DNA of 64,000 bases from Jezberella montanilacus (GTDB lineage: Bacteria > Pseudomonadota > Gammaproteobacteria > Burkholderiales > Burkholderiaceae_B): positions 62,001 to 126,000 of the forward strand of contig NZ_PVTV01000013.1 in NCBI RefSeq assembly GCF_003003055.1. Direction: 5' to 3'. The notes below the pieces were generated by a model. That model searched no databases, was not told where the DNA came from, and was given only the letters and a program-made list of their open reading frames with translations. Both the position numbers and the translations under genes were made by a program. Positions 13,230-53,135 of the stretch are shown piece by piece. The stretch's first letter is position 1, and every line of letters begins with the position of its first letter.

Positions 13230-13729
13230 TCACTGCTATTTACCCTGGTACGTTTGACCCTCTCACCCGCGGCCACGAAGATCTTGTTCGGCGAGCGGCT
13301 GGTTTATTCGACCAAGTCGTCGTGGGGATTGCCCACAGTCGCAACAAAAAACCCTTCTTCTCGGTTGATGAACGCGTCGAAATCGCGTCAGAGGTCCTCG
13401 GCCACTACCCCAATGTTCGGGTAGCCAGCTTTGCCGGATTACTGAAAGATTTTGTCCGTGAGCAGGACGGCCGAGTCATTGTTCGCGGTTTGCGCGCTGT
13501 GTCAGATTTTGAGTTCGAATTTCAAATGGCTGGCATGAATCGTCACTTGTTGCCTGAAGTCGAAACCCTATTTATGACTCCGTCCGATCAGTATCAATTT
13601 ATCTCGGGCACCATCGTGCGTGAGATAGCAATGCTGGGTGGGGACGTTGGCAAGTTCGTGTTTCCATCGGTAGAGCGTTGGTTGCAAGAAAAAGCCAAAG
13701 AACGCAAAGAGCAAAGCTGGCCGCAATAG
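13226..13729 (+). CDS. coaD: Phosphopantetheine adenylyltransferase
   Basis: CoaD transfers AMP to 4'-phosphopantetheine in CoA synthesis. The 167-residue protein has the nucleotidyltransferase signature [15 protein letters not shown] (TxGH motif), [15 protein letters not shown] and the late SSTIVRE-like segment, here [15 protein letters not shown]. It is translationally coupled to rsmD and followed 28 nt later by the ferredoxin gene. Confidence 0.96.
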
Positions 13730-13745
13730 CGCTGTCACAGCTTAA

Positions 13746-14374
<629 letters not shown>

Positions 14375-14444
14375 AATCGAGATGGTTTGGGTGTTGCGAT
14401 AAACATGATGACAAGCTGCTCAGGATAACGCACAATCAGGCTCG

Positions 14445-14508
14445 TTGACTTATTGTTGGGTGCAACGATAAGATTCTGCAAGAAAAAACTAAATAACTAT
14501 AAAGTTAT
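14445..14508 (+). promoter_or_regulatory. Candidate promoter and inverted repeat before the Liv-type operon
   Basis: TTGACT (14445-14450) with a 17-bp spacer precedes ATAAGA (14468-14473), a plausible but weak sigma-70 pair. Downstream, ATAACT (14493-14498) and AGTTAT (14503-14508) form a 6-bp inverted repeat with a 4-nt centre, just before the ribosome site AGGAG. This could be an operator. No regulator gene lies next to this operon. Confidence 0.35.
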
Positions 14509-14526
14509 CAACACAGGAGACATCGC

Positions 14527-15801
14527 ATGACCCTCAATAGAAAAAGTACGCCTGCACTACCCACTCGTCGAAAAATCATCCAAAGTGCAGGCGCGGCAGC
14601 AGGTTTGTCAGCCATCGGATTGCCAGCGATTTCGTTTGCTGACGACAAGCCAATCAAAATCGGTATGCCCACTATCTTGTCAGGTCGCGTTGCCACACTC
14701 GGTATTTCGTCACGAAACGCTGTCATGATGGAAATTGAAAAGTTCAATGCCGCTGGCGGTTTTGGCGGTCGCAAAATCGAGGTGATTGTGCGCGACTCAA
14801 AAGGTGCTCCACAAGAGTCAGCGCGTATTGCGCGTGAACTCGTTAACAGCGAAGGTTGCGAACTGCTCATCGATGGTGAAGCGTCAACAGGCTCATTTGC
14901 GGTGCAAGAAGTTGCTCGAGATCTAGGTGTGTTCTGTATCCATACATGCTCAGAGACCTCGTCACTGAGTGCTGACCCTAAATTGCGCTCACCTTATAGC
15001 TTCAGATGCGCTCGCCAGGGGATTCATGACGCCATCATTGGTGGCTCTTATGCCGCTACGGTTGCTAAAGAGAAAGGCTTGAAGCGCTGGATGACGATTT
15101 CGCCTGATTACGCGTATGGCCGCGACACCACGGCTGAGTTCATGGAATACCTCAAACACTTCAATAAAGACATTGAAGTCATTGGTGAAGTCTGGCCCAA
15201 GATTTTTCAGCCCGACTACACCGAGTCGATCACCCGTCTGCAGCAAGGCAAACCTCAAGCCGTCTATTCGGCTTTGTGGGGTGGAGACTTGAGCTCTTTC
15301 ATCGACCAGGCAAGTATTTATGCTTTGTTTAAAGATATGCCCTTCTTTGCAGTAAGCATGGCTGACTACACGGTACTGACAGCAATTAAAGCAGTCCCGC
15401 CCAATCTGTATTCATGCAATCGTTACCTGAAGAGTTTCCCTAACACGGCAGCCAATACTGCCTGGGGCGACGCGTATTTTGCTAAATTCAAAGAGTACCC
15501 AACCAACTGGGCCTGGCAAAACGCGGCTGCAGTCAGCTTCATCACCACCGCCATGAAAAAGACCAACAGCATCGACAGCAAAAAACTATCCGAGGCCTTG
15601 CGGGGCATGACGATCGACTCCCCTTTCGGTGCAAACGGCAAAATCACCATGCGTGCTGAGGATCAAACCATTGTTGAATACGCTGATGGTTGGGGTGCCC
15701 TGATCAACAAAGAGCCCTACATGCCAACTCCGCAGGCTGGTGACTGGAAGGTTGTCTACGAACTCGAAGCCGAATGGAAAAAGCGCAAGGGCTATCTCTG
15801 A
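14527..15801 (+). CDS. ABC importer substrate-binding protein, Liv/urea type
   Basis: A 424-residue periplasmic receptor of the branched-chain amino acid/urea/amide family. The start has a Tat-like signal (PTRRKIIQSAG, then a short hydrophobic stretch ending SFA), so it may be exported folded. The mature part starts DDKPIKIGMPTILSG and has the type-I receptor fold (KIEVIVRDSKGAPQESARIA; WMTISPDYAYGRDTTAEFM). AGGAG precedes the ATG. It leads the operon receptor-LivH-LivM-LivG-LivF. Receptors of this family also take aromatic acids, amides and urea, so the ligand is open. The neighbouring 2-oxo-acid decarboxylase suggests a carboxylic acid. Confidence 0.88.
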   Translation: MTLNRKSTPALPTRRKIIQSAGAAAGLSAIGLPAISFADDKPIKIGMPTILSGRVATLGISSRNAVMMEIEKFNAAGGFGGRKIEVIVRDSKGAPQESARIARELVNSEGCELLIDGEASTGSFAVQEVARDLGVFCIHTCSETSSLSADPKLRSPYSFRCARQGIHDAIIGGSYAATVAKEKGLKRWMTISPDYAYGRDTTAEFMEYLKHFNKDIEVIGEVWPKIFQPDYTESITRLQQGKPQAVYSALWGGDLSSFIDQASIYALFKDMPFFAVSMADYTVLTAIKAVPPNLYSCNRYLKSFPNTAANTAWGDAYFAKFKEYPTNWAWQNAAAVSFITTAMKKTNSIDSKKLSEALRGMTIDSPFGANGKITMRAEDQTIVEYADGWGALINKEPYMPTPQAGDWKVVYELEAEWKKRKGYL

Positions 15802-35179: not shown

Positions 35180-38100
35180 TCAAGGGAGTGCGGCAGCTTT
35201 GCGCAAAGCATCAATCTGCCCCTCGAGATTGCCCCACGCAGCCTTATCTGGCGCATATCTGGCGCGCATATAACGGACAAGCTCAGCAATCTCCTGTGTC
35301 CGAAGGTACTCGCCAAACGCGGGCATAAAACCAATATCTTTTGAGGCAGGATCGCGCACACCCTCAAGAATCACCCGAATCACATTATCCGGCCTGTCAC
35401 TATGTAAGTTCGTATTGAGTGCTAAGGGCACATTCATACCAAGCAGCTTGGGCCCCTGGCCATCATGGTGACAGGCACCGCAGGCCATCATGAACATCCG
35501 TTGAGCAGAGCCGGTCAGCGCAGGTGCGCTCTCCGCTGCTTGTGCAACAACAGCCTTCGCAAGCGCGGGGGTAGCCTGTTGAGCCTGAGTGTCTGACTGG
35601 TAGGACGCTAAATAATGTGACATGGCCCGTAAATCCTCTTGTGGCACCGTACTCAATTGCTGCACAACTGTCGACATGGGGCCTGAAGCACTGCCATGGT
35701 TCGGGCTAAAACCAGACTGCAGGTAAGTGAAAAAGTCTTGCTCTGTCCAGGGTACGGGCGCTCTGGACAGTGCAGTGAGTGCAGGGGCTTCCCATCCTTT
35801 TACCAGTGCCCCAGACAAAAAGGATTGACCGACTTGCTCAGCACCAAGCGCATTACGAGGGGTATGACAGGCGGTGCAATGCCCAGGGCCATTGACCAGA
35901 TACTCGCCCCGCAACCATTGCGCAGAAAGCTGCGGCTGCTCGGTCGCTAGCGGCTGAGGGTTGAGAAACGCTACGTTCCACAGCGCCATTAAGGGACGCA
36001 GACTAAAGGGGAAAGAAAGCTGAGCTTCCTGAACAACATTTTTCACAGGCTCCTGCGTCATTAGGTAGGCATAGAGCGCGGTGATGTCATCGCTTGTCAT
36101 CCTGGAAAACGAGGTGTACGGAAATGCAGGATACAAGTGCTGACCATCTCTGGATATACCTTGGCGCATCGCACGTTCAAACGCAGCAAGCGACCAATTA
36201 CCAATACCCGTTTGAGCGTCGGGAGTAAGGTTAGATCCATAAACGACTCCAAAAGGAGTCTGCATCGCCAGGCCACCTGCGAAAGGTTTACCACCCAGAG
36301 TCGTGTGACAGGACACACAGTTACCCAAATCTGCCAGCACCTTGCCCCGCGCGATGGTGTCGTCAGAATAGGTTGCGAGAGCGGGACGCGCAACCGGAGC
36401 GATTACTGAGCGCCAACCGAGCATTGCAGCGCCCGCCGTCAACATCCCCATCGCCAACAGACCAGCCCTCACCCAGACCTTGCGTCGACGAGGCCAGGCG
36501 GCATCGGAAGGCAGCTGGGCAGCTGGGGTCGCTGAAGCTTGGGTCGAACTGGTTTTGAAAGTGTCATCGGGCAAAGGATTTAACGCGGCGCGAATGATCT
36601 CTGCCGTAAATGGGGGCTGCCTGAACCGCACACCCGTCGCATCAAAAATCGCATTCGCAATCGCAGCCGTTCCCGGCACAGACGCCGACTCACCTGCCCC
36701 AAGCGCAGGTTCGTTTTGCCTGGGCATCTGCATCACTTCAATCACAGGCACTTCGCGGAAAGACAAGATCGGGTAGCTGCCAAAGTCACGTGACTGGATC
36801 GCATGCGTCTTAGCATCTGTGCGCACAGATTCATGCAAGGCGCGGCTGGTTGTCTGCACGACGTTGCCATGCACTTGTTGCTCAACCCCTTTGGGATTGA
36901 TCGTCATCCCGGCATCGTGTCCTACCACCACGCGCTTGACATGCACTTCACCCGTTTTACGGTTGACATCGACATCCGCCACCCAGGCCGACCAGGCAGC
37001 ACCAAAGCCTGGCCACTTGCTATGGATATAACGCGCATAGGCCAGACCCTGACCACTCAGGATGTCTCCCTGCGCCTGTTGCTGTTGTGGCGAAGCGTGC
37101 GCCTGCCAACTAGCTTTGTCAGCGGTCGCCTGCAATAACTCTCTGGCACGGGGATCATCGAGATAACGTAGTCTGAACTCGAGCGGATCCACCCCTGCAG
37201 CAGTTGCCAGTTCATCAATATAGGACTCATGCGCAAAAGAGTTGGGCAGCGCTGAGACGCCGCGCAACCATGAGGCACGCAAGATCGCAGGCATGTCATT
37301 GACAGTGACACGCAAATTGTCGATGCTGTATGGCGGACGGGCAGTTCTGTCACCCATCTCATAGGTCACAGCTTGTGGCTCAATCGTTCTGGTGAGCAAC
37401 AAGGCCAGCGTCGGCGCACCATTCGACGGATACGAAGTCGAAAAATCGTAAGCAGCGATCGCTCCGTCAGGAGTCAGACCACCCCGCACATCCATTAATT
37501 GCGCAGCGCCTTTCGGCTCCCACAGATTTTCTTGCTCACGCGTGAGCTGCACGCGCACCGAAGCACCCACTGCACGCGACAACAGCAAAGCATCGGCTGC
37601 GACATCATCGGCGCCATTTCGTCCATAACACCCCGCAGCTTCCATGCGTACAATTTCAATTTCATAGTCTGCCAGGCCCGAGAGACGCGCAAGGTCTGCG
37701 CGCAGGACATGGGGGTTTTGTGTCCCCGCCCAGACTGTCAAACGATAAGGATGCTCGGCAGTCACACGATCACCGTGCCAGGCAGCCACCGCACAGGAAG
37801 GCCCCATCGAGGCGTGCATCTGGTAGGGCCAGATGTATGTGCGGGCCATCTGTTGATCCGCTTGGCTCAACGCCTGATCGACATCGCCTTCTTCGACCAG
37901 ACGTCTGGGTGTAACAGGATTATTACGCAGCGCATTTTCTAAATTTGAGACATCGGGCAAACCTGGCCAGGATTTCCATTCAACGCTCAAGGCAGCGGCA
38001 GCAAGCTCGGCCTGCTCTTCGCGCTCGGCTACCACACCGATAAAATCACGAATCACCACGACGGCACGTATCCCGGGGATATGCGCAATAGAGGACTCAT

Positions 38101-38854
38101 CGACAGACTCTAGAAGATTGCCAATAAACTCGCCGTGATCAACCCCTGCGTAGGGAGGCCGGATCACACGACCATGCAACATTCCAGGCAGGCGCATGTC
38201 GTGAACGAAAGTCAGTTCTCCAGTGGCCTTGCCAGGGATATCCACACGCGGCAAGGACTGCCCGACTACTGTGTAATGTTCGGAAGACTTGACCTGCGCC
38301 GCCAGATCAAGCGTCAATCGGACCTGTTGCTGCCCGATTAACTGTGCATAAGATACTGAAGCGCCTGACAACCCCTCACGTAAAGAAACGACGCCTGCAC
38401 GCACTGTTAACTGTTCTATCTCTTTTGTATCGAAGTGCTGAGCGGCGAGCGTGAGCAAATACACCCGCGCCTGGGCCGCAGCGCGCCTGAGCGGTTCGCT
38501 ATGTAACTGGATCGAAGCACTTGCAATCGTCGGCCCCTGGTTAGGAGTAAGACCCGTATCACCCAGCACGACTTCTACGCTGGAGATGTCTACAGCGAGT
38601 TCTTCGGCGACGATTTGACCTAAGGCGGTACGAAGACCGGTACCCAGATCGACGTGACCATTTAACGCGACTACGCGGCCATCATTCCAGACCGACAACA
38701 ACACCTCAACGCCCTCGGCCGGGTTCGCCGCCACCATTGCAGGCTGCCCTTTAACAGGAGCGGGAGCAGGCAGAGGCTCACGCACAACTAACAGCACTCC
38801 TGCAGACTCTAAAAAGTCTTTACGGGTTCTTAGTTGGCGCGGCATCGTCGTCAT
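35180..38854 (-). CDS. nicB: Molybdenum hydroxylase large subunit fused to three-haem cytochrome c, NicB type
   Basis: A 1224-residue fusion. Residues about 40-760 are a xanthine-dehydrogenase-family molybdopterin subunit, with catalytic Glu E722 in PALGAGESASVPG. A membrane helix (about 790-810, AGLLAMGMLTAGAAMLGW) leads to three c-type haem sites: C846-x2-C849-H850, C993-x2-C996-H997 and C1125-x2-C1128-H1129. This is the architecture of Pseudomonas NicB, which hydroxylates nicotinate to 6-hydroxynicotinate with water and sends electrons to the respiratory chain through the haems. NicA is encoded 3 nt upstream. Other N-heteroaromatic acids are possible substrates, but the reductase and enamidase in the cluster favour nicotinate. 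It is last in the nine-gene operon. Confidence 0.87.
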   Translation of the reverse strand: MTTMPRQLRTRKDFLESAGVLLVVREPLPAPAPVKGQPAMVAANPAEGVEVLLSVWNDGRVVALNGHVDLGTGLRTALGQIVAEELAVDISSVEVVLGDTGLTPNQGPTIASASIQLHSEPLRRAAAQARVYLLTLAAQHFDTKEIEQLTVRAGVVSLREGLSGASVSYAQLIGQQQVRLTLDLAAQVKSSEHYTVVGQSLPRVDIPGKATGELTFVHDMRLPGMLHGRVIRPPYAGVDHGEFIGNLLESVDESSIAHIPGIRAVVVIRDFIGVVAEREEQAELAAAALSVEWKSWPGLPDVSNLENALRNNPVTPRRLVEEGDVDQALSQADQQMARTYIWPYQMHASMGPSCAVAAWHGDRVTAEHPYRLTVWAGTQNPHVLRADLARLSGLADYEIEIVRMEAAGCYGRNGADDVAADALLLSRAVGASVRVQLTREQENLWEPKGAAQLMDVRGGLTPDGAIAAYDFSTSYPSNGAPTLALLLTRTIEPQAVTYEMGDRTARPPYSIDNLRVTVNDMPAILRASWLRGVSALPNSFAHESYIDELATAAGVDPLEFRLRYLDDPRARELLQATADKASWQAHASPQQQQAQGDILSGQGLAYARYIHSKWPGFGAAWSAWVADVDVNRKTGEVHVKRVVVGHDAGMTINPKGVEQQVHGNVVQTTSRALHESVRTDAKTHAIQSRDFGSYPILSFREVPVIEVMQMPRQNEPALGAGESASVPGTAAIANAIFDATGVRFRQPPFTAEIIRAALNPLPDDTFKTSSTQASATPAAQLPSDAAWPRRRKVWVRAGLLAMGMLTAGAAMLGWRSVIAPVARPALATYSDDTIARGKVLADLGNCVSCHTTLGGKPFAGGLAMQTPFGVVYGSNLTPDAQTGIGNWSLAAFERAMRQGISRDGQHLYPAFPYTSFSRMTSDDITALYAYLMTQEPVKNVVQEAQLSFPFSLRPLMALWNVAFLNPQPLATEQPQLSAQWLRGEYLVNGPGHCTACHTPRNALGAEQVGQSFLSGALVKGWEAPALTALSRAPVPWTEQDFFTYLQSGFSPNHGSASGPMSTVVQQLSTVPQEDLRAMSHYLASYQSDTQAQQATPALAKAVVAQAAESAPALTGSAQRMFMMACGACHHDGQGPKLLGMNVPLALNTNLHSDRPDNVIRVILEGVRDPASKDIGFMPAFGEYLRTQEIAELVRYMRARYAPDKAAWGNLEGQIDALRKAAALP

Positions 38855-42849: not shown

Positions 42850-44064
42850 TCAATCGGCGGGACGTAATTTCTTGACGATTTCGGCTGAAGGTAAGACAGC
42901 CGCTCCATTTACGTAGCGATAGCCCACCATGACGCCTTTACCGTTATCGTTTTTAGTACGACCCACATAACCACCCATCGTGGACTGATGATCTTCTGCA
43001 CGATAAACGATCGGACCAAAAGGTGTCGCAACACTCAGCCCTTCAAAGGCAGCGATTAACTTGTCAGTATCTGTGCTTTGCGCTTTTTTGATACCGGCGG
43101 CTAAAGAGATAATTGACGAATACCCTACGATCGAACCGAGTCTTGGGTAATCTTTAAATCTATCCTGATAGGCTTTCAAAAAGGCCTGATGCTCAGCTGT
43201 CTCGATTCCGTACCACGGATAACCCGTTACCAGCCAGCCATTCGGTGCTTCGTCCTTGAGAGGATCCAGATACTCCGGCTCTCCGGTCAGCAAGCTCACC
43301 ATATCGCGATCCTTAAACAAGCCACGCGTATTGCCCTCCCGAACAAAGCGAGACAAATCCGCACCGAACAAGACGTTAAAAATAGCGTCTGGTTTTGCGT
43401 CGGCTAAGGCCTGCACAACGCTGCCCGCATCAACCTTACCTAATGGAGGCGCTTGTTCGGCCACAAACTCAACATCTGGCTGGGCTTGCTTGAGGAGTTC
43501 TTTGAACGTTGCTGCCGCGGATTGACCGTACTCATAATTGGGAAATACAACCGCCCAGCGTTTTCTTTTCATCGCAGCGGCTTCAGGTACCAGCATGGCG
43601 ACTTGCATATAGGTTGACGGACGTAACCGGAACGTATAGCGATTACCGTTTTGCCACACGATCTTATCGGTTAAGGGCTCACTGGCCAGAAAAAACATTT
43701 TTTTCTGCTTTGCGAAATCCGTTAATGCCAAACCAATATGCGAAAGAAATGAACCCGTTAACACATCAACCTTGTCGCGCGACACTAACTCCTCAGCCAC
43801 CCTCACGGCGTCACCTGGGCTGGCATTGTCATCCCGCGTGATGAGCTCAACTTTTTTACCGTTGAGCCCTCCCGCCGCGTTGATCTGTTCGACCGCGAGC
43901 TCCATGCCCTTTTTATAGGATTCAGTAAATGCGGGTTGAGCTTTATAACTATTGATCTCGCCGATTTTGATCACGTCTTCGGCGCAAGCGAACAATGCAG
44001 TCGATGCAAGCACGGCTGCGACCAAGCTTTGTCCAACGATCCGGCAGGCAGTACGATGCTTCAT
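42850..44064 (-). CDS. ABC importer substrate-binding protein, Liv type (nicotinate island)
   Basis: A 404-residue periplasmic receptor. The Sec signal peptide (about QSLVAAVLASTALFACA) is followed by EDVIKIGEINSYKAQPAF, QINAAGGLNGKKVELITRDD and WAVVFPNYEYGQSAAATF, typical of type-I receptors. It lies inside the nicotinate operon, 45 nt after the DUF1185 gene, so nicotinate or a related pyridine carboxylate is the likely ligand (inference from context only). Confidence 0.87.
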   Translation of the reverse strand: MKHRTACRIVGQSLVAAVLASTALFACAEDVIKIGEINSYKAQPAFTESYKKGMELAVEQINAAGGLNGKKVELITRDDNASPGDAVRVAEELVSRDKVDVLTGSFLSHIGLALTDFAKQKKMFFLASEPLTDKIVWQNGNRYTFRLRPSTYMQVAMLVPEAAAMKRKRWAVVFPNYEYGQSAAATFKELLKQAQPDVEFVAEQAPPLGKVDAGSVVQALADAKPDAIFNVLFGADLSRFVREGNTRGLFKDRDMVSLLTGEPEYLDPLKDEAPNGWLVTGYPWYGIETAEHQAFLKAYQDRFKDYPRLGSIVGYSSIISLAAGIKKAQSTDTDKLIAAFEGLSVATPFGPIVYRAEDHQSTMGGYVGRTKNDNGKGVMVGYRYVNGAAVLPSAEIVKKLRPAD

Positions 44065-44109: not shown

Positions 44110-44694
44110 TTAACGTAAGCCATCTTTACCGACGATTTCGTGGGCTTGCAGTCCACCGATTCGAGGTAAGGGTCGTCCACTATCCGTTACTGCAACTGCC
44201 ACTACTATTTCGTTTGCAAACGGCGCGTCAGTTACGCGTGCTTCGATCGCATCAAAATGACTACGTACAAACGCTGCATCTTTATGGCCGAGCGGCACAT
44301 CGATGGCAGCACCCGGCGCGCCACGCTTTTTGCTCGAGGGGACCAGGGCAGCACCGTGCGAAACCGCTAAGCGCAACGGCGCGCCGAGTTTAGGATGCAA
44401 GATCGCCGCCGCGTGTTCGAGTTCACCCGCCTCACCTACGATTGCGGCTTTTCCATAACTTTCAGCTTGCTCAGGTGTAATTCGAAGTGCCGATACACAA
44501 CGCTCTCCTAGTAACTTACCTAGTTCTTCGCCGACATCCATCAGTTCGCTTAAGTCCTCAACGTACTGACCAGCAAAGGGATTTTGAATCACAGCAATCG
44601 CCACGGCCCGACGTGTCGGCTGCGTAAGCGCGCGTCCCATTTCTGTATGCACTTCTTCCACCTGAACAATTATTTTTCGTATCTTCGCTTTCAT
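44110..44694 (-). CDS. DUF1185 'amino acid synthesis' family protein
   Basis: A 194-residue protein. ATG 44694 (MKAKIRKIIVQVEEVHTEMG) overlaps the UPF0280 stop as ATGA; the longer frame to 44742 is not supported. RRAVAIAVIQNPFAGQYVEDL and AALVPSSKKRGAPGAAIDVPLGH are marks of DUF1185, a family that keeps the name 'amino acid synthesis' without biochemical proof. Its tight coupling to UPF0280 and the 6-hydroxynicotinate reductase suggests a shared role in ring reduction or opening. No catalytic residues can be named. Confidence 0.82.
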   Translation of the reverse strand: MKAKIRKIIVQVEEVHTEMGRALTQPTRRAVAIAVIQNPFAGQYVEDLSELMDVGEELGKLLGERCVSALRITPEQAESYGKAAIVGEAGELEHAAAILHPKLGAPLRLAVSHGAALVPSSKKRGAPGAAIDVPLGHKDAAFVRSHFDAIEARVTDAPFANEIVVAVAVTDSGRPLPRIGGLQAHEIVGKDGLR

Positions 44695-45569
44695 GTATTC
44701 GCCATCCTTGAACAAGTCGACATCTCGGTGCTCGTGACCCAACCTTGGCAGGTTATCACTGCTGAAATAATCAGGCCTTTATTTTTTAACTCCCTTGCCC
44801 GCGTCAAGCCTTGCTGCAAAGCAGCATGAATATCGTCTTCACTCAGCGCAGGCACCTCAACCGTGACCAGTATTTCACCCAGATCAGAATCATCTTTAAG
44901 CGTGTTGGCTGGAAGACGGACGATGCGCGGATCATCCACATTGACTTCATTGGCAATCACCGTCGCCGCGGCATCGGCGCGGGCAGCCGTACTCGCCAGT
45001 ACCGTCACACTATCTGCCAGTCCAAGCGAATGACTGCGTCCACGCCAGCCGCTCGTCGCCACGCCCTGAACACCTGAATCCTGCGTGAGCTCAAACACCC
45101 CATCTACTGGAATGCCTGCTTGAACCATGCTTTCACTGAGTCGCGACAAATCTGCAAACAGACCGATTTTCAGGCTATGTCCCGGCGCCATATGAACGGC
45201 TATATCACCACCATTATTGATCCACGCCCGACTGATGCCCGGCAACCTGTAATCCTCTATCAATGTTTGTGCCACGGCACCCGCTACGGCCGCCATCGGC
45301 GTAATGAAGTCGTCTGTGCAGTCATGGCACGCTTGCCACATTGTTTTCGCAATCGGTCCCAGCACAAGACAATCTACTCCAACGGGTTGACGTAACGAAG
45401 TCAGCTCGCTCGTCAATTCGTTTAAGACACTTTGGAATCTTTTCCAGGCCGCTGCATGGGCACGCTCCACCGCCGCGTACTCACCCTCAGCGTAAGCGAT
45501 GATATCGATTGGCCCATGCTGAAAGTGTCGTCGTCCATCCTGCAAAACTGCGGAGATCGGTTCCTGCAT
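44691..45569 (-). CDS. UPF0280 (ApbE superfamily) protein
   Basis: A 292-residue protein of the UPF0280/COG2122 family, distantly related to the ApbE flavin transferases. Landmarks are TPMAAVAGAVAQTLIEDY, AWINNGGDIAVHM and GVATSGWRGRSHSLGLADSVTVLA, which echo the ApbE NxGGD and final active-site region. It lies 3 nt after the reductase and overlaps DUF1185. A maturation role, such as flavin handling for the reductase, is possible (inference); no activity is established for this family as far as I know. Confidence 0.83.
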   Translation of the reverse strand: MQEPISAVLQDGRRHFQHGPIDIIAYAEGEYAAVERAHAAAWKRFQSVLNELTSELTSLRQPVGVDCLVLGPIAKTMWQACHDCTDDFITPMAAVAGAVAQTLIEDYRLPGISRAWINNGGDIAVHMAPGHSLKIGLFADLSRLSESMVQAGIPVDGVFELTQDSGVQGVATSGWRGRSHSLGLADSVTVLASTAARADAAATVIANEVNVDDPRIVRLPANTLKDDSDLGEILVTVEVPALSEDDIHAALQQGLTRARELKNKGLIISAVITCQGWVTSTEMSTCSRMANT

Positions 45570-45572
45570 CGT

Positions 45573-47189
45573 TTAGCCCAACATGGGTGGTTGACCGAGA
45601 GGCCATGGACTCGCCTCAACTGGCCCGATCCACTTGACTGCCTGAGGAGCACCGTCGTGGTGCCAAGCGCCCTGGCCGACAGACTGCTCAAGCGTGCGCA
45701 CATAGTCCATATGCCCGCCTAAGCGTTGATAGTCCGAGAGCTTCATACTGAACTCGATCGGTGCCACGATCGCTGGCGTGGGAACGGTGCCAAAGCTGTT
45801 ATCCGGCATCCGCATCACATCGACCATCACCGTGATCCCCCCTCCCGGCCATACATAAGCCGGCGCGCCACCACACGTCACATTCACCAGTGATTTTTTA
45901 ATCGCCTGAGTCAACAACACAGGGTTTTCAGTCACACCCGCCCTGAGACTCCCCCCCGCACCAGCCAGGAACATGACACTGGTGAGCGAGGGCTCACAGT
46001 TTTCGCCAATTCGATCAACGACCTCCTGCACCTTCGCAGGGATTACTGCTTCCACCGGACGTAGCTGGTCATCCAGTACGTACCAGCTCGCATGCTCACC
46101 GGTTGTCGAGGTCATTAATAAACGCAATCCTGGCCAAGCCACTTTTTCGTCCCACCCTTCTATGATGGCTAAAGGGTCAGCAAGATCTGTGCCGCCCCAG
46201 CCGGTACCGGGATTCGCAACTTGAAAATACCTGCCCGGTGTGGATCTCCGCCCTCGCATCACGATTCCAGATGCACGCATATCCAGGCATTTGCCCGCCT
46301 GATGCTCGGTCAGTACACCGGTGATGTGGTCGTCCACTACCACCACCTCATCCGCCAAGCCTGAAAACTGCAGCGCGAAAATTCCGATCGTTGCCGAGCC
46401 ACAGCCCACACGCATACGCCGTTCAGTTACGCCGTTCACAATCGGGGCCTGTCCTGCTTGAACAACCAGTTGCGCACCACCGTCGATAGAGAGTTCTACC
46501 GAGCCTTTGTTGCCTAGCGCAAGCATGGCTTCCATCGTCACGCGGCCTTCTTTTTTACTGCCGCCGGTCAAGTGATGCACACCACCTAATGAAAGCATTT
46601 GAGAGCCGTACTCTGCCGTCGTGACATGGCCAATCACCTCACCTTTGACCCGCACATGCGCCTGTTCAGGCCCCAGGTATCTGTCAGTATCAATTTTGAC
46701 CTTGAGGCTGCAATAACTAAAAATACCCTCCGTCACGACGGTCACCAGATCCACACCAGATACTTTTGAGGCAACAATGAATGGAGCAGGCTTATAGTCA
46801 GGGTATGTCGTAGAGGCACCGACCCCTGTTACGAACACATTCTGATCAAGCAACGGACTCCTCTGAGCAGATGCATGCCCCGCCTTCAGGCTCGAAGCAG
46901 CCGACACAAAGTTAACGGGTTCTGACGCAGCCTGTGTGAGTCCTTTCTGTAGGAACACGACCGGGTCCACACGCACTAATATCCCGGCCTGATTGGCGTA
47001 GCGATCACAGGCACCGCTTCGCCCCTCGCTGATCTGGCACAGCACTGGACAGGCATTGCAGGCAATTTTTACCTCACTGACTTTCGCATTCCTGAGAACG
47101 GCGCGATCTGGAGCTACAGCCGGTGTTTGCACATTCATGTCCGGGAGCCCATCCGTTTTTGTGTGTTCCGTCATATTCCAGGTCGACAT
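45573..47189 (-). CDS. hnr: 6-hydroxynicotinate reductase-like [4Fe-4S] protein
   Basis: A 538-residue protein resembling the 6-hydroxynicotinate reductase of Eubacterium barkeri, which reduces 6-hydroxynicotinate to 1,4,5,6-tetrahydro-6-oxonicotinate. Near the N-terminus four cysteines form an iron-sulfur site: C44, C47, C51 and C61 (CNACPVLCQISEGRSGAC). Later blocks include GVGASTTYPDY, YGSQMLSLGGVHHLTGGSK and RVGCGSATIGIFALQ (T267). It is the first gene of the operon, so its promoter near 47220-47290, with two operator-like repeats, controls all nine genes. The electron donor is unknown. The family name is well supported by the neighbouring enamidase and NicAB. Confidence 0.85.
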   Translation of the reverse strand: MSTWNMTEHTKTDGLPDMNVQTPAVAPDRAVLRNAKVSEVKIACNACPVLCQISEGRSGACDRYANQAGILVRVDPVVFLQKGLTQAASEPVNFVSAASSLKAGHASAQRSPLLDQNVFVTGVGASTTYPDYKPAPFIVASKVSGVDLVTVVTEGIFSYCSLKVKIDTDRYLGPEQAHVRVKGEVIGHVTTAEYGSQMLSLGGVHHLTGGSKKEGRVTMEAMLALGNKGSVELSIDGGAQLVVQAGQAPIVNGVTERRMRVGCGSATIGIFALQFSGLADEVVVVDDHITGVLTEHQAGKCLDMRASGIVMRGRRSTPGRYFQVANPGTGWGGTDLADPLAIIEGWDEKVAWPGLRLLMTSTTGEHASWYVLDDQLRPVEAVIPAKVQEVVDRIGENCEPSLTSVMFLAGAGGSLRAGVTENPVLLTQAIKKSLVNVTCGGAPAYVWPGGGITVMVDVMRMPDNSFGTVPTPAIVAPIEFSMKLSDYQRLGGHMDYVRTLEQSVGQGAWHHDGAPQAVKWIGPVEASPWPLGQPPMLG

Positions 47190-47232: not shown

Positions 47233-47275
47233 AATGTAGCATTCACTAAACATAAAATGTTGCACTTACTACATA
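47233..47275. promoter_or_regulatory. Two tandem TetR-type operator candidates in the hnr/tetR intergenic region
   Basis: Site 1 (47233-47252) has a perfect left arm AATGTAGC and a poor right arm. Site 2 (47256-47275) reads AATGTTGC-N4-ACTACATA, three mismatches from the perfect repeat upstream of nadC (51986-52005). The site centres are 23 bp apart. Site 2 overlaps a possible -10 of the hnr promoter on the minus strand (TATGTA, with TTGGTT 16 bp upstream), so binding would block the operon. The 246-bp region is AT-rich and otherwise empty. Confidence 0.6.
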
Positions 47276-47435: not shown

Positions 47436-48107
47436 ATGACTGTTAAAAAACAGACGGTAACCAACTCTCCACGCAAGACCGGCGCACGCGAGCGAGCAGC
47501 AAAAACCACGCGTGACACGATCCTGCGTGCGGCGATAAAGGTTTTTTCAAAATACGGTCTCAGCGGCGGCAGCCTGGAAAAGATTTCTCGGGCAGCTAAA
47601 TCCCATGACAGAATGATCTATTACTACTTTGGGAATAAGGACGGATTGTTTGTCGCCGCGCTCGAGGAAATTTACCGCAGATTTAATGAAGCAGAAGCCG
47701 CCCTAGAGCTCGACCTGAACGATCCCATCGCTTCGATGCGCCTGATTATCGCGTTTATCCTGCACTATTATCGCGATCACCCTGAATTCATCGCCATTCT
47801 CAATAGCGAAAATTTGCTGCGAGGACAGCACATATCAAAATCTAGTACTGCAAAAGAATTTTCCATTGCAGCGATCGGTGTCATAGACAGAACCTTGCAG
47901 GTTGGCACGCAAAAGGGTTTGTTCCGCCCCGGTCTTCGCTCGCGCGATATCTATTTGATGATCGCCTCACTCGGTTATTTTTATCAATCCAATCGTTTTA
48001 CGCTCACTGCTTTTCTGGGCGAAAACCTTGAATCGCCAAAGATCTTCTCTGAATGGGAAGACTTTGTTACCCACTCGGTATTGCGCACTTTATTGATTGC
48101 AAACTAA
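47436..48107 (+). CDS. TetR/AcrR-family transcriptional regulator of the nicotinate island
   Basis: A 223-residue regulator. The N-terminal helix-turn-helix (about 26-72) reads DTILRAAIKVFSKYG...LEKISRAAK...MIYYYFGNKDGLF, the TetR signature. The C-terminal ligand domain (about 80-220) is all-helical. It diverges from hnr and is followed 26 nt later by the enamidase gene, so it is probably a pathway-specific repressor that also controls itself. 6-Hydroxynicotinate or nicotinate is the natural guess for its inducer. Pseudomonas nic clusters use a MarR-type regulator (NicR) instead. Confidence 0.88.
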   Translation: MTVKKQTVTNSPRKTGARERAAKTTRDTILRAAIKVFSKYGLSGGSLEKISRAAKSHDRMIYYYFGNKDGLFVAALEEIYRRFNEAEAALELDLNDPIASMRLIIAFILHYYRDHPEFIAILNSENLLRGQHISKSSTAKEFSIAAIGVIDRTLQVGTQKGLFRPGLRSRDIYLMIASLGYFYQSNRFTLTAFLGENLESPKIFSEWEDFVTHSVLRTLLIAN

Positions 48108-48133: not shown

Positions 48134-49324
48134 ATGGCAGAAGTACAAAGTTCAGAGAGCGCCGGCAAAGTCGTGATTAGAAATATTGGCTTGCTTTTGT
48201 CTGGCGATATTGACCAGCCTATTCTTGATGCGGACACGATCGTCTCGGTTGATGGCATCATCACCGCAGTTGGAAAAGAAAAAGACTGCGATATCAGCCA
48301 TGCGAAAACAGTGATCGATGCGCGCAAGACTTGTATCGCGCCAGGATTAATTGACAGCCATGTTCACCCCGTCTTTGGCGACTGGACGCCCAGGCAAAAC
48401 CAGCTGGGCTGGATTGAATCCACCATGCACGGTGGCGTCACAACAATGATCTCTGCCGGAGAAGTCCATCTGCCCGGCAGACCAAAAGACATTGTCGGCT
48501 TAAAAGCGCTGGCGATTACTGCACAGCGTGCCTTTGACAATTTTCGTCCTGGCGGTGTGAAGGTTCTGGCGGGTGCACCTGTGATTGAAAAGGGTATGGT
48601 TGAACAGGACTTTAAAGAGCTGGCTGAGGCTGGTGTCACGCTTCTGGGTGAAGTAGGACTAGGTTCCGTGAAGGCGGGCGAAGAAGCGCAACGCATGGTC
48701 GCATGGGCGCGTAAATACGGAATCCAGAGCACCATCCATACGGGAGGCCCCTCCATTCCGGGCTCGGGACTGATTGACAAGGATGTCGTCCTCGAAGCCG
48801 ACGCAGATATCATCGGCCATATCAATGGCGGCCATACCTCACTTTCCGAACAACACGTCTGCGAGCTATGCGAAAAATCCTCACGCGGGATCGAGATTGT
48901 TCACAACGGTAATGAGAAAATTGCCATCGCAGCCGCACAAGCAGCCATTGCACTCAAATGCCCTCACCGCGTGATACTCGGAACAGATGGCCCTGCGGGC
49001 TCAGGTGTTCAGCCCTTAGGTATGTTGCGTATGATTGCCTTGCTCTCGAGTCTGGGCAACATTGCACCTGAGCTTGTGCTGTGTTTTGCGACCGGTAACA
49101 CGGCGAAAATGCGCCAGCTGAACTGTGGTCTGATCGAACCCGGGCGCAGCGCTGATTTCGTCATCATGGATCGCGCGCAACACACGGCAGGTCGGGATCT
49201 GCTCGAAAGCTTAAGCCTGGGCGACATACCTGGCATTGGTATGGTCATCATTGATGGGATTGTGCGTTGTTGCCGCAGTCGCAATACGCCGCCAGCGACT
49301 GAAATACCGCATGTCATTAATTAA
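48134..49324 (+). CDS. ena: Enamidase (1,4,5,6-tetrahydro-6-oxonicotinate amidohydrolase)
   Basis: A 396-residue amidohydrolase very like enamidase of Eubacterium barkeri, which hydrolyses 1,4,5,6-tetrahydro-6-oxonicotinate to 2-formylglutarate and ammonia. Shared segments are VIRNIGLLLSGDI, HGGVTTMISAGE, PGRPKD, HTGGPSIPGSG and SRNTPPA near the C-terminus. Metal ligands are H76 and H78 (DSHVH), E173 (GEVGLGSVK), H202, H229 (GHINGG) and D285 (GTDGPAG). GGGAGCAGG lies just upstream of the ATG. It is co-transcribed with tetR. Its stop overlaps that of the convergent phnN fusion within the palindrome TTAATTAA. Confidence 0.9.
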   Translation: MAEVQSSESAGKVVIRNIGLLLSGDIDQPILDADTIVSVDGIITAVGKEKDCDISHAKTVIDARKTCIAPGLIDSHVHPVFGDWTPRQNQLGWIESTMHGGVTTMISAGEVHLPGRPKDIVGLKALAITAQRAFDNFRPGGVKVLAGAPVIEKGMVEQDFKELAEAGVTLLGEVGLGSVKAGEEAQRMVAWARKYGIQSTIHTGGPSIPGSGLIDKDVVLEADADIIGHINGGHTSLSEQHVCELCEKSSRGIEIVHNGNEKIAIAAAQAAIALKCPHRVILGTDGPAGSGVQPLGMLRMIALLSSLGNIAPELVLCFATGNTAKMRQLNCGLIEPGRSADFVIMDRAQHTAGRDLLESLSLGDIPGIGMVIIDGIVRCCRSRNTPPATEIPHVIN

Positions 49325-51104
49325 TTCTGTAGCCGCTGTCTTGTTGCGCTGCCTGCACGGCGAGCGCCAATCTGGCTGGGTCGCTCGCTTGTACGAGATA
49401 CAAACTTTCACCCGCTTGAACCTGCTCGCCAGCTGATTTCAATAAATCAACCCCTGCGAGGTGATCGGTGGGAGCACCCGCGGTACGTGCAATGCCGGAG
49501 ATTACAAAGCCATCTATTCGCCTGATCGTGCCCGCAGCCCTAGCCTGGATTGCCTCACGCTTAACGTTTGAAAAATCGTAATCAGTCTGACGGCCCTGCT
49601 TGTCTATTATCCTGTCGAGCGCTTGTCGTGCTGCCCCACTGGCGAGCAACTCATACGCTCTTTTTCGTCCCGCCTGAACAGAGCCTACGCTTTCGTCCAA
49701 AGCCAATATCTGACTGGCGTAAAAAAGTGATTTTTCTAACAGATCACTGGGTGCCTCAGGGGAGTGATCGAGCACTTGCAAGACATCCCTGACCTCCAGG
49801 GCAGGACCGATACCTCGACCAATAGGTGAGTCCCCATCCGTCGCAAAGGCTTTCACCACCAGCCCTAGCTGCTGTCCCACTCTTTCAAACAGCTGAGCCA
49901 GACTCTCCGCATCTTCTTTTGATTTAACCTTACCTGACGACGTGTAGGGAATATCAATCACCACATGGGTTGAACCTGCCGTATATTTTTTTGACAAAAT
50001 TGATGCAACAGACCAGGATCTCGTGTCCAGCCCAAGTGGTCTCGTGAGGGCGTTCATGACCTCATCGAGTATCGAATGGTTGAGTTTGCCGTTCCAGGCG
50101 ATACAAGCGTTTGTTTCAAGCACACAAGCCCTGAGCTCAGCGGGCGTGAGATCGACTTTTGCAAGGACCTCCATTGCGTCTGCCGTACCTGCCGCAGAAG
50201 TGATTGCTCTGGAAGACGTCTTTGGAATAAGTAACCCATGCGCCGCGATAATAGGGATGACCACCATCGTGACTCGGCTGCCTGGAATCCCACCCATTGA
50301 GTGTTTATCGACAACCATTCCGCTTGGCCAGCTAATGCGGGGCACGGTTTGCGAACGTGCTTTGGCAATCGAAATAATCTCTTCTAACTGCAAATCGTGA
50401 GTGCAAGCAATCAGGAAAGCGTGCAGAGCAGATTCTGTATGCTCGTGGTTGACAATTGCTTTGATCAACTCCTGATACTCTGAGTCGGTCGGCACACCAC
50501 CAGCAATTTTTTTATACACCGCGCGCAACGATGGTGGTGCAAGATTGACTCGCGTCAATAATGCTGCCACAAAACGCTCGATCCCCACTTCAAGTGTTAG
50601 GTCATTCGTGACACGGATAACCTCTACCTGCGAGGGAAATTCTTGCGTTTTTCTTGCGAGTCGCTTTGCAACATCATCGGGCTTCTCGCGCCCCCTTGCA
50701 ACTAATCGATTCATTAGCACCTCTGCAGGCGCAGTGATTTCAACGACAATCAGAGAAGGAATTTGTTGCGCAAGTTGCGCAATCATTGCACGCGATCCAT
50801 TTGCAATCACGTGTCTACCCGAAGCAAGCTCTTGCTTGAGCTGTGCGGACAGGCCGTAATGTAAACCATGTGCTTGCCAGGCAATCAAAAACTCTTGATT
50901 AGCCTGCCTGGCCAGAAACTGCTCGGTCGTACACGCCTCATGATCCTCGCCGGGTGAACCCGCCGGTCGCGTGATGACACGCCGCGCATAAATAAAATTT
51001 TCAGCAGGCAACAGCTTCCGGGCACCATCAATCAAACTATCTTTACCAGCCCCACTCGGGCCGACAATAAAGAAAAAGCAACCCGGCAAGGCGTTGCGCA
51101 TCAT
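49317..51104 (-). CDS. PhnN - AMP-phosphorylase-type fusion protein
   Basis: A 595-residue fusion. Residues 1-190 are PhnN (ribose 1,5-bisphosphate phosphokinase, making PRPP): P-loop GPSGAGKDS at 15-23, ARRVITRP and MNRLVARGRE. Residues about 195-570 are a nucleoside/nucleotide phosphorylase: VDKHSMGGIPGSRVTM from 265, PKTSSRAITSAAGTAD from 294, and SPIGRGIGPALEVRDVL. These match archaeal AMP phosphorylase, which yields ribose 1,5-bisphosphate, rather than thymidine phosphorylase DeoA. The product of the second domain is the substrate of the first, so the chain could channel ribose 1,5-bisphosphate to PRPP. It overlaps nadC by 4 nt, so it is translated with it. NaMN is the proposed substrate (inference). 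Confidence 0.87.
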   Translation of the reverse strand: MMRNALPGCFFFIVGPSGAGKDSLIDGARKLLPAENFIYARRVITRPAGSPGEDHEACTTEQFLARQANQEFLIAWQAHGLHYGLSAQLKQELASGRHVIANGSRAMIAQLAQQIPSLIVVEITAPAEVLMNRLVARGREKPDDVAKRLARKTQEFPSQVEVIRVTNDLTLEVGIERFVAALLTRVNLAPPSLRAVYKKIAGGVPTDSEYQELIKAIVNHEHTESALHAFLIACTHDLQLEEIISIAKARSQTVPRISWPSGMVVDKHSMGGIPGSRVTMVVIPIIAAHGLLIPKTSSRAITSAAGTADAMEVLAKVDLTPAELRACVLETNACIAWNGKLNHSILDEVMNALTRPLGLDTRSWSVASILSKKYTAGSTHVVIDIPYTSSGKVKSKEDAESLAQLFERVGQQLGLVVKAFATDGDSPIGRGIGPALEVRDVLQVLDHSPEAPSDLLEKSLFYASQILALDESVGSVQAGRKRAYELLASGAARQALDRIIDKQGRQTDYDFSNVKREAIQARAAGTIRRIDGFVISGIARTAGAPTDHLAGVDLLKSAGEQVQAGESLYLVQASDPARLALAVQAAQQDSGYRIN

Positions 51105-51931
51105 TCATCTAGTCCAATATCGACGATGGGTGCGGCCTGCGTGATCTTGCTGGTTGAAATGTAGTCTACGCCAGTCAGTGCTATCTCGCGAATCGTGTCG
51201 ATCCTGATACCGCCAGAGGCTTCAATCTTTGCGCGACCATCAATTATTTTGACGGCAGTTGTCATGTCAGCAATCGACATGTTGTCGAGCATAATCACGT
51301 CGACCCCGGCTTCAAGCGCCTCAGCCACTTGATCTAACCGATCACACTCGACTTCTATCTTCGTCAGCACAGGTAGATTTTTACGTGCCCGTTCGACCGC
51401 TTTTACGATGCTGCCGGCAATGGCGATGTGATTATCTTTCAACATTACGCCATTATCCAGACCAAGACGATGATTCAAGCCACCACCACAAGTTACCGCA
51501 TGTTTTTCGAGCATCCGCAGACCCGGTGTTGTTTTTCTTGTATCAATCAGACGGGTTTGTGTACCCTCAAGTGCTTGCTTGTAACGCGCTGTTTCGGTCG
51601 CAATCCCGCATAACAACTGCAGGATATTTAAGGCGGGGCGCTCTGCCGTCAAGATACTGCGAGCAGGCCCAGACACCGTGAGGATGCGCTTACCCTTTTC
51701 GACTTTATCACTGTCTTTCACCAGACACGTGACCTGCAGTCTCGCGTCATAACGCGTCAAAAGTCGGGCCGCGACCTGTATGCCAGCAATGATCATCGGC
51801 TCACGCGCGTTCATATGGAAGGTACCGACAGCATCTTCATCAATCATGAGTTGCGCAGTCAAATCGCAACAACCAATGTCTTCGGTCAACCACAGATCGA
51901 TCAATCGGTCTGTTTGAAAAATGTCATACAT
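51101..51931 (-). CDS. nadC: Nicotinate-nucleotide pyrophosphorylase (quinolinate phosphoribosyltransferase)
   Basis: NadC converts quinolinate and PRPP to NaMN, CO2 and PPi. The 276-residue protein keeps the active-site set: R98 (AERPALN), T131-R132-K133-T134 (DTRKTTPGLR), H154-R155 (GGGLNHR), K165 with N167-H168 (LKDNH), and EVE, MLDN and EASGGI loops. The nearby change NILQLLCGIAT differs from the usual RLSGIAT. The related ModD proteins differ in context and in these loops. GGGG sits 7 nt before the ATG. It is first in a two-gene operon with the PhnN fusion, downstream of a perfect operator. It is probably a catabolic copy beside a biosynthetic nadC elsewhere. Confidence 0.9.
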   Translation of the reverse strand: MYDIFQTDRLIDLWLTEDIGCCDLTAQLMIDEDAVGTFHMNAREPMIIAGIQVAARLLTRYDARLQVTCLVKDSDKVEKGKRILTVSGPARSILTAERPALNILQLLCGIATETARYKQALEGTQTRLIDTRKTTPGLRMLEKHAVTCGGGLNHRLGLDNGVMLKDNHIAIAGSIVKAVERARKNLPVLTKIEVECDRLDQVAEALEAGVDVIMLDNMSIADMTTAVKIIDGRAKIEASGGIRIDTIREIALTGVDYISTSKITQAAPIVDIGLDE

Positions 51932-51985: not shown

Positions 51986-52005
51986 AATGTAGCAAACGCT
52001 ACATT
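51986..52005. promoter_or_regulatory. Perfect inverted-repeat operator between nadC and the Bug receptor gene
   Basis: AATGTAGC-AAAC-GCTACATT is an exact 8-bp inverted repeat with a 4-nt centre. It lies 54 nt before the nadC ATG and 134 nt before the receptor ATG, inside an AT-rich 202-bp divergent region. The same motif in degenerate form recurs upstream of hnr. It is the likely binding site of the TetR protein at 47436-48107. Confidence 0.7.
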
Positions 52006-52139
52006 TTTTTCTATATTAAATTAATTTCATTTTTTCTGCAATCTGCAGTAAAACTAGATTGTTATTGCAATTGAGAAATCGCTTATTGATATTTTTCTAA
52101 TATCCTCTAAGCGAAAGACACACACAGGAATCCTTGATT

Positions 52140-53135
52140 ATGCGTCATGCTCTTGCCTTCAAAGCGATACAAGCTCTTGCAATACTGACATATGGACTCG
52201 GTGCCATTTCCCAGGCTGCCGCACAAGAAAAGGCAGAGCAATTCCCCAGCAAACCCATCAACATTACTGTCACCTTTCCTCCCGGAGGCGGGACTGATGT
52301 GTTAGCGCGACTGATTGGCAATTACTTGCAAGACAGCACCGGACATTCCGCAATTGTTGAAAATCGTCCTGGCGCCAGCGGAAACTTAGGCGCTCGATAT
52401 GTAGCGGGGCGTGCGCCCGACGGCTACTCGTTACTGATGGTAAACAGTTCTTTTGCTGTAAACCCCGGCGTGTTCAGCAACTTAGCTTTCGATCCAAAAA
52501 AGGATTTTGTTCCCATCATCAATGTAGCGTTTGTTCCATCCGTACTGATTGTGCCAAGCGACTCACCGTATCAATCTTTATCTGACATGCTCAATGCGGC
52601 AAAACCTGAAAAGAATTCGGTTTCCTACGGATCCTGCGGTAACGGGACTCCCCAGCATCTTGCTGGAGAAATGTTGAATATCAGCGCCAAAACGCATATC
52701 ACCCACATCCCATACACGGGATGTGGACCAGCACTGAAAGACGTGCTGGGAGGTCAAGTTCCGATGGCGATTATTACTGCGTCCAGTGCGAGCGCACAAA
52801 TACAGGCTGGACAGGTACGTGCGCTTGCCGTCACGTCGCAAGAGCGCTCACCACTGATGCCAAACATCCCAACGGTTGCAGAACAAGGCTATCCCGGCTA
52901 TCAGTTGAACCAATGGCATGGTTTGCTCGCACCAGCGGGTACGCCTGTGGCTATTCAGAAAAAGCTCTATGACGACCTGGTTAAAGTGCTGGAGCGTCAA
53001 GAGATCAAAGACAAACTTGCCTCGCTCGGATACACCCCTGCAAAAGATGGTCCGTCTGCATTTCAGCTCATTCTGAATTCAGATATCGACCGCTTTGCTA
53101 TGTTGACGAAAGAGATTGGATTGAGGGCAGATTGA
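52140..53135 (+). CDS. Bug/TctC-family tripartite tricarboxylate receptor
   Basis: A 331-residue periplasmic receptor. The signal peptide (ALAILTYGLGAISQAAAQ) precedes FPSKPINITVTFPPGGGTDVLARLI, the family mark. NRPGASGNLGARYVAGRAPDGYSLL and LAPAGTPVAIQKKLYDDL follow. ATG 52140 is taken as start; TTG 52134 is an alternative, as AGGA lies at 52126-52129. No tctA or tctB membrane genes are near, the rule for Bug receptors in Bordetella relatives. Divergence from nadC across a shared operator suggests an aromatic pyridine carboxylate such as quinolinate (inference). Confidence 0.9.
   Translation: MRHALAFKAIQALAILTYGLGAISQAAAQEKAEQFPSKPINITVTFPPGGGTDVLARLIGNYLQDSTGHSAIVENRPGASGNLGARYVAGRAPDGYSLLMVNSSFAVNPGVFSNLAFDPKKDFVPIINVAFVPSVLIVPSDSPYQSLSDMLNAAKPEKNSVSYGSCGNGTPQHLAGEMLNISAKTHITHIPYTGCGPALKDVLGGQVPMAIITASSASAQIQAGQVRALAVTSQERSPLMPNIPTVAEQGYPGYQLNQWHGLLAPAGTPVAIQKKLYDDLVKVLERQEIKDKLASLGYTPAKDGPSAFQLILNSDIDRFAMLTKEIGLRAD

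Follow-up and report, generated by a model that had tools for sequence, protein, structure and literature searches.

We analyzed a 64-kb window of the Jezberella montanilacus genome (within contig C3; genome of 3.16 Mb, given as 100% complete), using the word window for this whole stretch of DNA. On its minus strand lies nadC, followed by a gene that fuses a PhnN kinase to a nucleotide-phosphorylase domain, and this two-gene module and the part it may play in turning quinolinate into nicotinate are the subject of the present analysis. A first-pass annotation of the DNA had reported that the two genes share an ATGA overlap, and both open reading frames indeed lie where it had placed them, on the minus strand and overlapping by 4 bases. 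The module and its immediate surroundings comprise the following features:

51101..51931, minus strand: NadC, quinolinate phosphoribosyltransferase of the module clade (TIGR00078)
49317..51104, minus strand: fusion of PhnN and an AMP-phosphorylase-like domain, 595 amino acids, in ATGA overlap (4 bases) with nadC
50559..51083, minus strand: PhnN (ribose 1,5-bisphosphokinase) domain, residues 8–182 of the fusion (TIGR02322)
49320..50540, minus strand: nucleotide-phosphorylase domain, residues 189–595 of the fusion, proposed nicotinate mononucleotide (NaMN) phosphorylase (sequence and fold match to 4ga5)
51986..52005, no strand: perfect palindrome between nadC and tctC, probable operator, AATGTAGC-AAAC-GCTACATT
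52134..53135, plus strand: periplasmic binding protein of the TctC/Bug27 type, encoded divergently from nadC, a probable receptor for quinolinate (2qpq match)

The upstream gene product is probably NadC, the decarboxylating quinolinate phosphoribosyltransferase that depends on phosphoribosyl pyrophosphate (PRPP), as judged by its score of 316.9 bits against the TIGR00078 nadC family (cut-off 198.4). Identity as ModD was ruled out (115.2 bits against a cut-off of 178.85). The motif residues R131 K132 T133, N152 H153 R154, and K164 are invariant in the 6 aligned sequences. Residues 8–182 of the fusion score 183.9 bits against TIGR02322 (PhnN, cut-off 156), and all 24 aligned fusions match this family at E <= 0.001. 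Residues 189–595 form an AMP/thymidine-phosphorylase-type domain that scores 519.5 bits against NF003338 (cut-off 434), where "thymidine phosphorylase" is the name of a subfamily and not a tested function. This domain falls below the cut-offs of both the AMP_phos equivalog TIGR03327 (364.2 bits, cut-off 535) and the thymidine phosphorylase family TIGR02643 (117.5 bits, cut-off 570.7). The TIGR03327 match starts at profile position 84, and the window copy is without the N-terminal domain of approximately 84 residues of AMP phosphorylase. The closest solved structure by sequence is the archaeal AMP phosphorylase 4ga5, and Foldseek searches with the AlphaFold model of the fusion (mean pLDDT 91.8) ranked the archaeal AMP phosphorylases 4ga5 and 4ga4 at the top (4ga5_A, E 9.1e-37, TMt 0.78). 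The first-pass annotation had called this domain AMP-phosphorylase-type, a description that stands for the fold and the nearest structure but not for the equivalog cut-off, and the counterpart of the first approximately 83 residues is missing. In 3 relatives (L039, L059, and L060) an extra stretch lies between PhnN and the phosphorylase core, at the place where the N-terminal domain of AMP phosphorylase would be; it is absent from the window copy, L038, and L058.

To compare residues, we aligned 73 module proteins (12 of 85 were lost to a motif filter) with 27 generic homologs from the order, leaving unused 5 flagged columns of the PhnN region, where unrelated domains are being compared. R250 and H343 are present in all 73 module proteins and in none of the 27 generic homologs, all of which carry M and L, respectively, at these positions, and W364 is present in 72 of the 73 while 24 of the 27 generic homologs have Q. 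These 3 residues lie outside the 2 peptide patterns with which the loci were located. S269 (73/73; C in 26/27 generic homologs) and N338 (73/73; G in 27/27) lie within those patterns, so that their invariance is partly built in and counts for less. As for short signatures, DKHSMGG was found in only 50 of the 73 module proteins and CIAWNG in 68. The stretch WGGALNLAPADD of archaeal AMP phosphorylase is replaced by WNGKLNHSILDE in the module domain. In thymidine phosphorylase structures this stretch borders the base, which makes a changed base preference plausible. We infer from these features that NaMN may be the substrate of the phosphorylase domain. Fusions of this kind could not be confirmed in viral contigs, in either of 2 sets of pattern matches (0/42 and 0/63).

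A domain with this fold might instead cleave AMP, CMP, or UMP in nucleotide salvage, like archaeal AMP phosphorylase, with the resulting PRPP feeding NadC. Besides the nearest solved structure, the generic bacterial homologs speak for this option: among 18 loci of the "thymidine phosphorylase family" (L040–L057, mostly of the DKHC/WGG type), 15 contain a Prs-like gene, mostly directly beside the phosphorylase gene, within approximately 14 to 16 kb. These Prs-like proteins are 22–29% identical to the product of the window's prs. The association of such a phosphorylase with a PRPP-synthetase-like gene thus seems to be a general pairing, and since it is wider than the module, the fusion alone is no proof of a NaMN substrate. 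However, nucleotide salvage does not account for the missed AMP_phos cut-off, for the clade-specific substitutions in the phosphorylase domain, or for the special NadC partner and the co-occurrence with nicotinate pathways described below, and we therefore consider it distinctly improbable. A NadC match was found in none of the same 18 generic loci (approximately 14 to 16 kb each).

We propose, at a probability of roughly 0.78 and on inferential support, that the two-gene module converts quinolinate to nicotinate with recycling of PRPP, as the first-pass annotation had suggested. In the predicted cycle, a Bug27-type receptor would help to import quinolinate, which NadC would combine with PRPP to give NaMN, CO2, and pyrophosphate. 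The phosphorylase domain would then split NaMN with phosphate into nicotinate and ribose 1,5-bisphosphate, and the fused PhnN domain would use ATP to turn ribose 1,5-bisphosphate into PRPP, closing the cycle. The net reaction would be quinolinate + ATP + phosphate -> nicotinate + CO2 + ADP + pyrophosphate. Because a catabolic flux through NadC would use one PRPP per quinolinate, the phosphorolysis and kinase steps of the fusion would serve to recover it. Nicotinate could enter the neighboring NicAB-Hnr-Ena route, or the NicC/NicX route in other genomes, and it could also supply the synthesis of nicotinamide adenine dinucleotide (NAD) via PncB. The proposal draws on the genes and their architecture, their conservation, the association with 2 catabolic pathways, the second NadC, the similarity of the receptor, and an operator-like repeat shared by 2 gene units; the enzyme activities, NaMN as phosphorylase substrate, the catabolic flux, the import, and the identity of the repressor are predicted.

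The conservation of the pair was examined at 2 scales. In an order-wide sample of 399 genomes, a phosphorylase homolog at E <= 1e-60 was found in 31; of the 30 loci compared, 3 encode the fusion (G000, G119, and G317) and 27 are generic, without the P-loop of PhnN, while the 31st homolog (G337, matching only residues 216–586) stood outside the comparison. In addition, 84,980 species genomes were scanned with an alignment of 6 fusions, and the best 80 of 188 relatives were used (L061–L140). Adding 2 loci of the order sample (L038 and L039) and 3 of plasmid records (L058–L060) gave 85 loci, in which L038 and L110 represent the same genome (identical NadC) and L087 and L121 come from within one strain. 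Module-type NadC (at least 200 matched residues) was found in 76 of the 85 loci, always upstream of the fusion and on the same strand; one of these, L131, has only 212 matched NadC residues and a stop in the first part. Among the remaining loci, nadC is cut by the contig end in 2, 5 end before the nadC position, and 2 are without nadC. Thus, 76 of the 78 loci with enough upstream sequence have NadC followed by the fusion, and the pairing is a conserved module and not a product of chance.

Module NadC also stands apart from other NadC proteins. The copies from 75 loci and the window share 51–100% identity (median 74), and they are at most 46% identical (median 41) to 15 other NadC proteins from 15 of these genomes, of which 13 are second copies and the other 2 are the sole copies in 2 Pseudomonas genomes. 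In a midpoint-rooted tree the module NadCs form one clade with a local support of 0.934. For 50 of the 80 loci, hand-chosen so as to favor isolates and a spread of lineages, we then searched the corresponding 50 genomes. Every one of them has nadC and 33 have nadA, which in 29 cases is directly adjoined by another nadC. In those 29 genomes nadA has its own neighboring nadC, so the module NadC is not the biosynthetic copy. Of the 17 genomes without nadA, 16 have a single nadC, and the remaining one (G441) carries an additional NadC-like copy.

These data bear on the possibility that the module serves NAD salvage, in which imported quinolinate would be converted by NadC to NaMN and on to NAD, with the PhnN part merely supplying PRPP. 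Neighborhoods of bug27, nadC, and phnN in Variovorax and Jezberella have been interpreted in this way in the literature (PMC11452294, 2024). The absence of nadA from 17 of the 50 module genomes, where NadC could serve salvage, and from the window's own genome agrees with it. Salvage leaves the phosphorylase domain unexplained, however, and the word "phosphorylase" is absent from the main text of PMC11452294. It likewise does not explain the second NadC of the 29 genomes in which another nadC adjoins nadA, nor the association of the module with nicotinate catabolism genes, and the small flux of NAD synthesis would require no dedicated PRPP regenerator. Altogether, we regard NAD salvage as improbable.

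In the window's genome we found a single nadC match together with the nicotinate phosphoribosyltransferase PncB, whereas nadA was not found and no protein scored above the nadB cut-off (best match 370 bits, cut-off 452.75). The best nadB match is the succinate dehydrogenase SdhA (TIGR01816, 911.1 bits against a cut-off of 727.35). A place for NadC within a complete de novo NAD pathway is hence ruled out in this genome, since nadA is absent and the nadB match is SdhA. The lack of nadA and of a nadB above the cut-off, alongside the presence of PncB, supports the conversion of quinolinate to nicotinate. The presence of PncB would also suit a valve on the NAD pool, in which the fusion degrades NaMN to limit NAD synthesis or to recycle nicotinate, without any catabolic flux and by a chemistry identical to that of the proposed cycle. 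Such a valve leaves the second NadC, the Bug27-like receptor gene, and the placement among nicotinate-catabolic genes unexplained, and we give it very little credence.

Nicotinate is catabolized through an Hnr-Ena route (Eubacterium-type) or a NicC-NicX route (Pseudomonas-type). As the first-pass annotation had stated, NicA/NicB-like, Hnr-like, and enamidase-like amidohydrolase genes are present beside the pair, and the remaining features of this part of the window are:

48134..49324, plus strand: enamidase-like amidohydrolase (Ena; Pfam Amidohydro_1)
47436..48107, plus strand: TetR-family regulator, proposed as repressor of both units (Pfam TetR_N, TetR_C_29)
47256..47275, no strand: second degenerate operator copy in the hnr/tetR intergenic region, 13/16 positions
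47233..47252, no strand: degenerate operator copy in the hnr/tetR intergenic region, 12/16 positions
45573..47189, minus strand: 6-hydroxynicotinate reductase-like protein (Hnr), 66% identity over 41 amino acids to the 5' end of hnr in CP030828.1
44691..45569, minus strand: PRK04334-type protein of the nicotinate cluster (NF003322, 357 bits, cut-off 290)
44110..44742, minus strand: AA_synth-family protein of the nicotinate cluster (Pfam PF06684)
42850..44064, minus strand: LivK-like ABC substrate-binding protein, 24% identity to the LivK encoded close to nicA/nicB and hnr in CP030828.1
39367..42828, minus strand: LivHM-like permease and 2 LivG/LivF-like ATPases, 27–39% identity to the liv genes of CP030828.1
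38858..39364, minus strand: NicA-like 2Fe-2S subunit, 59% identity to an annotated nicA product
35180..38854, minus strand: NicB-like molybdopterin/cytochrome c subunit, 48% identity to an annotated nicB product and 53% to a Pantoea homolog

For Ena, no NCBIfam cut-off was passed among the best 25 of 37 matches, and the specific name enamidase follows the first-pass annotation. Pfam and NCBIfam scans of Hnr gave no match. The protein encoded at 44691..45569 is one that we take to be UPF0280-like.

We used the window Hnr and the annotated 2,5-dihydroxypyridine 5,6-dioxygenase of Pantoea sp. At-9b (NicX) as queries to analyze the co-occurrence of the module with nicotinate catabolism. NicX was counted at 50% identity or more, a line set after a gap in the scores was seen, and matches of 34–40% were treated as other paralogues. 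Hnr was found in 20 and NicX in 25 of the 50 module genomes, no genome having both, so that 45 of the 50 have one or the other. The concern that the pair might sit mostly in genomes without nicotinate-degradation genes is thereby answered. With weak NicX matches included, NicX is present in 27 genomes, 2 of them also with Hnr, and the union is still 45. In the order sample, Hnr occurs in 30 genomes and NicX reaches 50% in 7 of the 26 with a match, which gives 37 genomes in total; Hnr or NicX is present in all 3 module genomes compared with 34 of the 396 others. One-sided Fisher tests gave p = 7e-4 within the order sample and 2e-34 for 45/50 against 34/396, values that overstate the association because the genomes are related and hand-picked, and one genome (G119, the same as G426) is counted in both sets. 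When weak NicX matches are counted, the background rises to 48/396 and the p values become 0.002 in the order sample and 6e-30 in the 50-genome comparison. At the level of the loci, Hnr lies within 14, Ena within 12, and either of them within 16 of the 85. Homologs of nicC, nicD, nicE, nicF, and nicX lie within approximately 20 kb of the pair in 5 of the 25 NicX genomes, those of 3 Pandoraea, Cupriavidus plantarum, and C. pauculus. Immediately upstream of nadC, both of these Cupriavidus loci carry a MarR gene that resembles the one in the nic cluster of Pantoea.

The best match of the window TctC (52134–53135) in the PDB is 2qpq, Bordetella Bug27 (E 2.2e-139), a protein reported to bind quinolinate with a dissociation constant of 136 nM (PMC11452294). 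Residues G21, T22, S74, C136, Q142, C165, and T183 of the docked quinolinate site described in that report are kept in the window TctC, and the best counterparts of its Phe12 and Asn228 in the deposited chain are F16 and N227. The window TctC is thus probably a quinolinate receptor, as far as similarity to Bug27 indicates. Bug27-like TctC (at least 45% identity) occurs in 25 of the 85 loci; matches of 25–38%, regarded as different paralogues, are left out of this number. Other transporter genes near the pair, with names given partly by eye, are of the LivK type (11 loci), NitT type (7), MFS (12), and TRAP (6), and a TetR homolog is found in 11 of the 85 loci. An operator repeat had been said to link the 2 units of the window, and it is there, as a palindrome at nadC/tctC and 2 degenerate copies at hnr/tetR. 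We scanned 16 hand-chosen loci for it, counting at least 12 of 16 positions as a match. In L061 and L099 nadC and hnr are both preceded by matches; in L066 and L083 this holds for nadC only, in L069, L093, and L039 for hnr only, and in L100 and L115 a match lies approximately 240 bases before the fusion. Over 80 loci the same 12/16-position scan gave 60 matches compared with 29 in shuffled sequence, so that single weak matches mean little. A match inside tctC (52521, 13/16 positions) was taken as chance. These results support an operator link between the nadC and hnr units in the window's nearer relatives, and the TetR protein encoded at 47436–48107 may bind the palindrome and repress both units.

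Several observations weigh against conversion of quinolinate to nicotinate by the module. The fusions of 2 Pseudomonas loci (L106 and L126) have no adjacent nadC, the only nadC of these genomes being 43% identical to module NadC, and the same genomes have neither Hnr nor NicX. Both are also missing from G400, G401, and G405, although the G401 locus (L066) includes, at the end of its contig, an enamidase-like gene. In 14 Cupriavidus-type loci a gap of 0.96 to 1.02 kb separates nadC from the fusion, with a MarR-family gene nearby, which in both inspected loci (L104 and L107) lies between the 2 genes on the opposite strand. Of the 25 genomes with NicX, 20 have it more than 20 kb from the module or on another contig. 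Of the 16 loci scanned for the operator, 7 had no match at the nadC or hnr promoters. Finally, deletion of bug69, a bug27 paralogue, left growth of Bordetella bronchiseptica on quinolinate unimpaired (PMC11452294).

All 3 enzyme families of the module are already known. We know of no description of a nicotinate-mononucleotide phosphorylase activity. As the first-pass annotation had claimed for the pathway, our literature search found no description of it or of a NaMN phosphorylase among the matches listed, most subscription journals lying outside its scope. The archaeal AMP phosphorylase pathway consists of AMP phosphorylase, ribose 1,5-bisphosphate isomerase, and type III Rubisco. With that pathway (PMC9700705), the module would share the phosphorolysis of a nucleotide to free base and ribose 1,5-bisphosphate, and it shares the fold (4ga5). 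It differs in that its phosphorylase is fused to PhnN and does not reach the AMP_phos cut-off, and in that ribose 1,5-bisphosphate would return to PRPP and not go to Rubisco, the proposed base being nicotinate. The salvage of quinolinate for NAD in Bordetella and streptococci (NadC, Bug69/Bug27; PMC11452294) resembles the module in NadC, a Bug-type receptor, and the lack of nadA in some genomes. Unlike that system, as far as its published description goes, the module has the phosphorylase-PhnN fusion and supplies an additional nadC in genomes with nadA, and in several genomes it sits with nicotinate-catabolic and TetR or MarR genes. The PhnN of phosphonate operons, a ribose 1,5-bisphosphokinase, belongs to the same kinase family (TIGR02322), but the module PhnN is fused to a phosphorylase domain, and among 10 window proteins scanned none besides the fusion passes a phosphonate-family cut-off (TctC against PhnD, 20.4 bits, cut-off 261.1). 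The known routes of nicotinate catabolism are the gene neighbors and probable downstream route of the module, which would add to them an upstream entry for quinolinate. We think it likely that PRPP acts here as a catalytic carrier in catabolism, such that a dicarboxylic pyridine loses CO2 once phosphoribosylated and a fused NaMN phosphorylase/ribose-1,5-bisphosphate kinase remakes PRPP, which would make this an undescribed pathway with a new enzyme activity and at least 2 downstream routes.

If this is true, the module provides a complete, testable gene set for the use of quinolinate by bacteria, and NadC, an enzyme of coenzyme precursor synthesis, would have been recruited to catabolism with PRPP as a recycled carrier. 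The annotation, too, would need correcting, as 2 annotated records label the genes nadC (pyridine nucleotide biosynthesis) and phnN (phosphonate metabolism). Quinolinate is a neurotoxin in mammals, which would give a wider use to identifying its degraders.

Other genes recur near the module. An FRG-domain protein (one cluster member was checked by Pfam) is found near it in 21 of the 85 loci (L038, L039, L058, L059, L061, L076–L079, L081, L082, L089, L096, L102, L110, L111, L114, L119, L122, L129, and L130). Cluster C10, a family with a methyl-accepting chemotaxis receptor bearing a Cache domain among its members (one checked), lies near it in 13 loci (L085, L087, L088, L091, L103, L107, L109, L111, L116, L121, L128, L129, and L136), and these receptors are possibly sensors of quinolinate or nicotinate. 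In L039, an aldehyde:ferredoxin-oxidoreductase-like gene, named by eye, lies at 12971–14680 after a TRAP transporter beside the module.

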